Source of the DNA: Chloroflexota bacterium
Lineage (GTDB): Bacteria > Chloroflexota > Dehalococcoidia > Lucifugimonadales > GCA-002723415
Assembly (NCBI GenBank): GCA_002721445.1
Contig: PBKN01000005.1
Span: 157,689-221,688 of the forward strand
Length of the DNA stretch: 64,000 nt
Reading direction: 5' to 3'
Shown here one piece after another: positions 50,888 to 52,226 of this stretch. Each line of letters starts with the position of its first letter. The stretch's first letter is position 1. Position numbers and translations under genes: made by a program. The notes beneath the pieces are model-generated. The model searched no databases. It saw only the letters and a list, made by a program, of their open reading frames with translations, and was not told the DNA's origin.

Positions 50888-51003
50888 TAAATTTATTAAT
50901 CCTTATAAATTTATATTACAAAAATATTGAAATTCAATCATAGCCTAAGAAGAAGATCAAAATCAATATCAAAAATTAATTAAACATCTACCTTTTTTCG
51001 TAG

Positions 51004-51024
51004 TAAAACAATATAATTGTTTTA
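51004..51024. promoter_or_regulatory. Perfect palindrome enclosing a -10 box (probable operator)
   Basis: Arms TAAAACAAT (51004-51012) and ATTGTTTTA (51016-51024) are exact inverted repeats around ata. A perfect TATAAT lies across the centre at 51012-51017, reading rightward toward the antiporter gene. Such an arrangement fits a dimeric repressor that blocks RNA polymerase. The repressor is unknown. No good -35 is seen. Confidence 0.55.
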
Positions 51025-51060
51025 TTAGAGACACAAAAAGAATACAAAAAGTCTCAAGAA

Positions 51061-51159
51061 AGGAGGTAGATCATTGGAATATAGTAAACGGAGGTGTTAT
51101 AGATAGGTGTTCTCTGTAACACCTCTCACTAGGAGCTTCCCTTAATCAGGAAGCTCCTA
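51061..51159 (+). promoter_or_regulatory. Structured leader with switchable hairpins upstream of the cation antiporter
   Basis: From 51061 the leader contains AGGAGG, a ten-codon frame, and stem GAGGTGTTA/TAACACCTC (51091-51099 with 51117-51125). A second AGGTGTT (51105-51111) can pair with the same partner AACACCT (51118-51124), so two stems exclude one another. A further stem TAGGAGCTTCC/GGAAGCTCCTA follows (51130-51140 with 51149-51159, loop eight bases). No T-run comes after it. A weaker GAGAC/GTCTC pair (51028-51032 with 51051-51055) precedes the whole. I match it to no known riboswitch class. Confidence 0.55.
51074..51106 (+). CDS. Possible leader peptide of ten codons
   Basis: TTG at 51074, seven bases after a perfect AGGAGG (51061-51066), opens MEYSKRRCYR and a TAG stop. 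The last codons cover the first copy of AGGTGTT, which forms the left arm of the first hairpin. The stop codon is the beginning of the second copy. Translation would therefore decide which hairpin forms. The strength of the ribosome-binding site, among the best in the window, makes chance less likely, but nothing else proves translation. Confidence 0.4.
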   Translation: MEYSKRRCYR

Positions 51160-51215
51160 AACTTTAGAATACCAAACTAAATAATCACAAACTGAAAAAG
51201 GAAATAGAAGTTTAA

Positions 51216-52226
51216 ATGTCTGATCTTTTACCATGGATACAATTAATCATTGCAGCTTCAATAATATTATTTACATCTAAATATCTTGTAAAACACGCTG
51301 ATAATATTGCAATTCAGACTGGCCTCGGAAGAACTTTTATCGGTATAGTTTTATTGGCAACTGCAACTTCTTTACCAGAATTAGCTACAGGTATTAACTC
51401 AGTCTATTCGTTAAAATCTCCAGACTTAGCAGCTGGTGACGTATTTGGCAGTAATATCTTTAATTTATTAATAATTGTTGTGCTAGATACTTACTCTGGT
51501 AATCGTCCTTTTTTAAGTGATATCAAGAGTATTTCATGGACTCTTCCAGTATTAACTATTATAGCTATATTAATAGCAATAATAGCTATGTGGAGTTCAA
51601 ATCAAATAAACATTAATTCTAGTAGCGTAGGATTATTATCTTATGCGATTTTTATATTTTTTATACTATCGATGTTCATAACTTATAATCAAAGCAAAAA
51701 TGAAAATCAAGAATCCGATAATAATGAAGAAATTACAAATAATAACCCTTCAGTAAAATACAGTCTACTCATTTATATTATTAGTGCAGCAATAATTATA
51801 ATCAGCTCCATATTTTTATCTATGGGAGGTGAGAAAATAGCCCATATAATGAAATGGCAAGAAAGTTTTGTAGGAACTCAATTGCTTGCCTTAAGTACTT
51901 CCCTCCCAGAATTAGCAACATCTTTAGCTGCATTAAGATTGAGAGCTCCTGAATTAGCAATTACCAACCTATTGGGCAGTAATTTATTTAACACAGGTAT
52001 AGTTTTGTTTCTTGATGATGTTTTTTATACTAGTAAGCCAATATGGCTAGACCTATCTCAAATACATATTTTTAACGCTTTTATAGCTATATTAATGACT
52101 TGTACGATTCTCATAACTATCCAAATCAAACCAAAACAAAAATTACTTAAATTCATAGGAATAGAAAGTGCTATTTTAATTATATTATATTTAATATCCA
52201 CGATATACACGTTCCAAAGTGGATAA
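51216..52226 (+). CDS. CaCA family Na+/Ca2+-type cation antiporter
   Basis: 336 residues, ten to eleven membrane helices in two inverted halves. The two alpha repeats are ATATSLPELATGINSV with GDVFGSNIFNL, and ALSTSLPELATSLAAL with TNLLGSNLFNT; each holds the acidic residue for cation binding. A charged loop of about 35 residues (KNENQESDNNEE) separates the halves. It exports calcium or a related cation in exchange for sodium or protons. Its 5' region is the structured leader described separately, suggesting control by ion or translation state. Confidence 0.88.
   Translation: MSDLLPWIQLIIAASIILFTSKYLVKHADNIAIQTGLGRTFIGIVLLATATSLPELATGINSVYSLKSPDLAAGDVFGSNIFNLLIIVVLDTYSGNRPFLSDIKSISWTLPVLTIIAILIAIIAMWSSNQININSSSVGLLSYAIFIFFILSMFITYNQSKNENQESDNNEEITNNNPSVKYSLLIYIISAAIIIISSIFLSMGGEKIAHIMKWQESFVGTQLLALSTSLPELATSLAALRLRAPELAITNLLGSNLFNTGIVLFLDDVFYTSKPIWLDLSQIHIFNAFIAILMTCTILITIQIKPKQKLLKFIGIESAILIILYLISTIYTFQSG

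Follow-up and report, generated by a model that had tools for sequence, protein, structure and literature searches.

A candidate small RNA family of SAR202-type marine Chloroflexi with a conserved micro-ORF that overlaps two mutually exclusive hairpins

Comparative sequence analysis identified a previously uncatalogued family of small RNAs in SAR202-type marine Chloroflexi, a copy of which is present in the 64-kb stretch of DNA analyzed here (the window). The reading that we favor, with a probability of roughly 55%, is that positions 51025-51165 encode a stand-alone small RNA, in which translation of its own reading frame would set the sequences that are exposed, and which would act in trans by base pairing. 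More tentatively, the RNA may serve as a free-standing translation sensor, detached from any operon and present once per genome across the order, in which a frame of about 9-12 codons is combined with shared-arm hairpins that expose or hide a trans-acting sequence. The features of the window to which the text refers are the following.

51012-51017, forward strand: TATAAT, putative -10 box, with similar spacing upstream of the Shine-Dalgarno element (SD) in nearly all homologs
51028-51032 (GAGAC) paired with 51051-51055 (GTCTC), forward strand: hairpin 1, with a variable loop; arms compensated in homologs
51057-51067, forward strand: extended SD, AGAAAGGAGGT; AAAGGAG nearly invariant in homologs
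51074-51106, forward strand: micro-ORF MEYSKRRCYR, ten codons, with a TTG start at 51074-51076 and a TAG stop at 51104-51106
51090-51103 paired with 51113-51126, forward strand: hairpin 2A, 14 pairs, including the first AGGTGTT copy
51104-51112, forward strand: invariant loop UAGGUGUUC, which takes in the stop codon; identical in 44 of 46 distinct sequences
51105-51111 paired with 51118-51124, forward strand: alternative hairpin 2B, formed by the second AGGTGTT copy and incompatible with 2A
51130-51140 paired with 51149-51159, forward strand: hairpin 3, an 11-bp perfect stem at the position of a Rho-independent terminator; a stem occurs at the equivalent place in homologs
51216-52226, forward strand: CaCA (Na+/Ca2+ exchanger) gene (Pfam Na_Ca_ex, E 9.8e-39)

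Transcription of the small RNA would be expected to start near 51024-51028, downstream of the TATAAT box. The extended SD, whose AGGAGG occupies 51061-51066, is complementary to the 3' tail of the 16S rRNA of the same genome, in which GGATCACCTCCTTTCT was found. The heptamer AGGTGTT, of which there are three on the forward strand of the window, occurs at 51092-51098 and at 51105-51111, and AACACCT is located at 51118-51124. Since one heptamer lies within the 2A helix and the other in its loop, two hairpins with a common 3' arm can be drawn. In the predicted fold, the nine-base loop of 2A (TAGGTGTTC) begins with the stop codon and contains the second heptamer; the calculated energies are -19.0 kcal/mol for 2A versus -7.4 kcal/mol for 2B with the 5' arm blocked. 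The element as a whole (51025-51165) is predicted to fold into three hairpins at -43.8 kcal/mol (z-score -4.84), and none of 200 shuffled sequences folded as well. Apart from hairpin 3, the window contains no perfect stem of at least 10 bp with at least 35% GC. The U tract that follows hairpin 3 is weak in this copy (AACTTTAG, with 3 T in 10 nt).

A preliminary description of this DNA had read the AGGAGG, the TTG-initiated ten-codon frame, the two AGGTGTT copies, the AACACCT and the 11-bp hairpin, all of which were recovered base for base. The pairing that it proposed for the first heptamer is also present, but forms part of the 14-pair helix, which carries the second copy in its loop and is far more stable than 2B. 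The TATAAT box, hairpin 1 and the extended complementarity of the SD to the 16S tail had not been described.

Upstream of the element, positions 50986-50999 are complementary to the SD region (51058-51071) over 14 bp, an extent that no other homolog checked reaches, and would sequester the SD if transcription began further upstream. The fold that includes this pairing has a z-score of -8.75. A three-way junction using 50986-50999 was excluded from the RNA, because the TATAAT box lies between its arms and the pairing is not kept in relatives; the complementarity is probably due to chance.

When the nucleotide sequence of 50975-51215 was used as a query against 250 genomes of the same order, a core (about 51051-51126) was found in many of them, at unrelated positions and mostly with 71-78% identity. 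A covariance model (R1), built from 25 of these matches, yielded matches in 69 of 247 genomes of the order, essentially one per genome. About 53 of these are strong full-length matches (E below 1e-8), and a further group comes from one divergent family (f28); in all, the core recurs once per genome in about 55 genomes, in addition to the divergent family. Where relatives in the genome collection carry a name, the annotation is SAR202 cluster or Chloroflexi. Outside the order, searches at the level of the class and the phylum returned a few marginal single matches, no more than chance predicts. In 33 genomes from families of the order without an R1 match, a search with laxer filters yielded weak candidates only. 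In the families of the order without a match, the RNA may be absent or may have diverged beyond the model. Comparisons within the main family refer below to 52 non-identical homologs, and hairpin statistics to 46 distinct sequences.

The preliminary description recognized no described RNA class, and a search of Rfam 15 with the element in the window and 13 homologous loci likewise gave nothing credible at curated or permissive thresholds. No published description of the family was found in the open literature. An identity with tmRNA was rejected, as a separate above-cut-off tmRNA is present in the same genome (G000:C7:125197-125548). An identity with 6S RNA was also rejected: no match to RF00013 exceeded the cut-off in 19 genomes of the order, and the predicted fold consists of three hairpins, in place of a long helix with a central bubble. 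The 6S RNA was thus undetected above cut-off in the genome of the window and 18 relatives, in most of which tmRNA was found.

The reading frame is a constant component of the family. A TTG-opened frame lies a short distance past the SD in all 52 main-family homologs; it comprises 10 codons in 47 of them, 11 in four and 9 in one, and ends in the invariant loop, with TAG in 51 cases and TAA in one. Indels inside the frame are exclusively multiples of three, and the distance from SD to start shifts by one and two bases. In the divergent family, the frame comprises 10-13 codons, depending on the start chosen, with TAG, TAA or TGA as the stop; sister sequences swap TTG and GTG starts, and an in-frame ATG is possible in two copies (L132 and L137). 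In the comparative sense, the micro-ORF is real. The main-family peptide has a consensus of roughly MDSSxRRCxR, in which D2, S3, S4 and R6-R7 are common, while the peptides of the divergent family (MNSSTGGVLL, LSHELPGGALAF) are unrelated to it. Amino acid conservation is modest, and translation rather than the peptide therefore seems to be the thing kept. The significance previously attached to the Arg/Cys/Tyr-rich codons did not hold up, since codons 6-10 follow the RNA helix and the tyrosine is not conserved. Conservation of the SD and of the KRRCYR codons had been named as support for a regulatory leader; the former is evident in the AAAGGAG core, and codons 6-10 vary. A conserved run of control codons tied to a pathway was not found in the codon table of the homologs.

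Comparison among the homologs shows hairpins 1, 2A and 3, and the pairing potential of 2B, to be conserved. The best stem for hairpin 1 is mostly 6-10 bp, versus 4-6 bp in shuffled sequences, and its arms are compensated (AGAGAC/GTCTCT, AGGGAC/GTCCCT, TCGAAGGCT/GGCCTTCGG, TCAGAGTCC/GGACTCTGG). All main-family homologs have a stem of 10-17 bp where hairpin 3 lies, albeit a poor one in L045, and in most copies at least 5 of the next 10 nt are T. For 2A, 89.4% of the cells in the alignment are paired and two-sided changes occur at 10 of the 14 pairs; its covariation score was reached by none of 500 shuffles, which ignore the tree. For 2B, 94.6% of the cells are paired, and true covariation is small (3 cells), as the loop that serves as its 5' arm hardly varies. 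The two 3'-arm columns most often mismatched in 2A (in 17 and 16 of the 46 sequences) are informative in this respect: 2B remains paired in 17 and 15 of these (32 of 33 cells), the purines of the 3' arm being preserved at the columns where 2A is mismatched. The loop variants UAGAUGUUC (L047) and UAAAUGUUC (L123) are each matched by changes in the 3' arm. Compensatory changes in both stems, which the preliminary description had listed as support, are thus strong in 2A but few in 2B, with both loop variants compensated, and its combination of a micro-ORF with two mutually exclusive hairpins sharing a 3' arm proved to be conserved across the order. A strict targeting seed would not be expected to accept the A/G and C/U changes that are found in the 3' arm. 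In the L123 copy (G075:C5), which has a tRNA and the 3' terminus of an LSU rRNA gene close by, the loop is the most diverged of all, the 3' arm has compensating changes and the stop is UAA.

In the divergent family, 2A is 96.2% paired, with two-sided changes in 5 pairs, and a competitor hairpin is formed by its 5' arm and the bases that directly follow the stop. The cells of this competitor are 97.5% paired; its covariation lies within that of the shuffles (61 of 500), and wobble-tolerant conservation provides most of the support. The arm common to both alternatives is the 5' arm in the divergent family and the 3' arm in the main family. Because each branch has a competing pair of its own, competing structures around the stop codon appear to be common to both, but wired differently. 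In several divergent copies (L124, L127, L130, L131 and L133), hairpin 3 is a long conserved inverted repeat (e.g., GGTGAAATTATCCG...CGATAATTTCACC) with little U tract, and a NUDIX hydrolase-like gene then follows on the same strand in most of them. A role as a NUDIX leader was considered for the divergent family and rejected: although NUDIX follows many copies, a minus-strand gene intervenes in L132.

The near-identity of the loop and the strong covariation of 2A would also be compatible with a structured small RNA whose invariant loop is the binding site for a protein or a target, and in which neither the frame nor 2B takes part in any switching. Such an RNA would not account for a frame whose indels come in threes and whose start and stop codons are exchanged, nor for the 3'-arm purines kept where 2A is mismatched, and we consider it unlikely. 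Marginally less likely is a very small mRNA, whose product would be the peptide of 9-12 residues and whose hairpins would set stability and termination only. The strong SD, the conserved open frame and the common residues of the main-family peptide are in keeping with an mRNA of this kind, but residues 8-10 change along with the helix, the peptides of the divergent family are unrelated, and the conservation of the nine-base loop past the stop is left unexplained.

The genomic context differs markedly from that expected of a leader. In 46 of the 52 main-family copies the next gene is convergent, typically phosphotriesterase-like or cinA (genes named by visual inspection of the sequences), and the 52 copies share no common downstream gene. 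TATAAT is present upstream of the core in nearly all homologs. With its own putative promoter, hairpin 3 followed by a U tract in most copies, an intergenic position and varying neighbors, the RNA bears the marks of a stand-alone gene. Judged by this arrangement of sequences, it is an independent small RNA gene and not, as first described, the leader of a cation antiporter.

The CaCA gene is a neighbor in the window only, outside the conserved unit, and was found beside the RNA in no other homolog. Homologous leaders had been anticipated upstream of CaCA antiporters in relatives; none was seen, the regions upstream of the closest antiporters being unrelated and lacking an RNA-like leader. In the two genomes that encode these antiporters (64% and 55% identity), the RNA is located on other contigs, and a scan of the genome collection with the antiporter yielded three distant relatives only. 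The Pfam-supported cinA of the window sits just past the antiporter, and cinA is a neighbor of the RNA in several relatives. The simplest history would therefore be an insertion of the antiporter between the RNA and cinA. A tandem pair of CaCA antiporter genes was noted in one relative (G036:C23:83590-85669). On the other side of the RNA, many main-family genomes (L044, L045, L048, L049, L053 and others) carry a divergent small VOC/glyoxalase-like gene of about 120 aa immediately upstream; in the window, a MaoC-like gene takes this place.

Translation-dependent attenuation in cis, whereby the position of the ribosome would select the hairpin and thereby termination or read-through into the CaCA gene, was the logic initially proposed. 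Part of its anatomy is in place, namely the ORF and the alternative hairpins with their shared arm, but a conserved downstream gene, an overlap that would create an antiterminator, and control codons are missing. In the window the antiporter is on the same strand, and the poor U tract after hairpin 3 means that some transcripts could continue into it. Both 2A and 2B end short of hairpin 3 in this copy, however, such that no antiterminator is visible; together with the predominance of convergent genes, the absence of an antiporter behind any other homolog and the unrelated regions upstream of the closest antiporters, this makes attenuation in cis improbable. A ribosome decoy, whose perfect SD captures free 30S subunits and whose frame lets them cycle off, is very improbable: the nearly invariant AAAGGAG core and the match of AGAAAGGAGG to the 16S tail would suit it, but it has no need of the invariant loop or the alternative hairpins, and very high RNA abundance would be required.

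Under the favored reading, that of a small RNA governed by its own translation and acting in trans, the transcript would begin with hairpin 1 and an exposed extended SD, continue through a translated micro-ORF of about 9-12 codons into the hairpin switch, and close with a terminator hairpin. As the alternative hairpins are incompatible, the shape of the RNA probably depends on the translating ribosome. In its absence, the last codons of the frame would be locked in 2A and the loop displayed. The 5' arm of 2A begins 16 bases past the first base of the start codon, a distance close to that of the leading edge of an initiating ribosome, given the size of its footprint. Initiation should therefore proceed unhindered by 2A, while elongation to the stop codon must open it, which would part the 5' arm from the 3' arm. 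The latter contains CCUC, which is complementary to Shine-Dalgarno elements. A ribosome at the stop codon would cover the 5' arm and the loop and release the 3' arm, which would either stay free or be recaptured by the loop as 2B; after departure of the ribosome, 2B or 2A would form. The RNA would in this manner report its own translation through an exchange of hairpins and act in trans by base pairing, the pairing element being either the loop or the SD-complementary 3' arm. Action in trans is proposed in view of the usual lack of a gene in cis on which to act.

In ribosome-dependent attenuators, such as the trp and erm leaders, a short frame is combined with alternative hairpins that share an arm, and ribosome occupancy decides between them. 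The RNA described here differs in that no regulated downstream gene is found across the order and the alternative hairpins are clear of the terminator. The nearest documented case is, by analogy, rnTrpL, the trpL attenuator RNA of Sinorhizobium meliloti, which also acts in trans, although its operon is still present (PMC7298713). It shares with the candidate RNA its small size, a terminator and a very short ORF, and the translating ribosome selects among its mutually exclusive structures, as is proposed here; it differs in deriving from an attenuator ahead of trpE(G), in being leaderless and in its Trp control codons (PMC7298713). In contrast, the new RNA usually has no downstream gene to control, and it has a strong SD and no conserved control codons. 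Small RNAs of the Cuckoo and CcsR type in the alphaproteobacteria resemble it in having pyrimidine-rich motifs able to match Shine-Dalgarno elements, but they belong to another phylum, carry the motif CCUCCUCCC and an associated DUF1127 gene, and have no micro-ORF over the hairpin (PMC10253847; PMC3927594). The Rfam suhB/mmgR model gave only chance-level scores with the element and its homologous loci. Dual-function small RNAs similarly carry a frame (PMC5521070); in the new RNA the frame overlaps the conserved switch, and the peptide is poorly conserved. A full-text search of the literature returned a single paper that touches on both SAR202 and noncoding RNA, and this in passing only.

The family now has a searchable covariance model, and its proposed switch lends itself to clear single-base tests. 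The accepted role of attenuator RNAs is to switch the gene that follows them. If the favored reading is true, an attenuator anatomy with nothing behind it would suggest that the status of translation can be broadcast in trans, and the family would represent a regulatory RNA for the SAR202-type bacteria, which are abundant marine organisms and for the most part uncultured.
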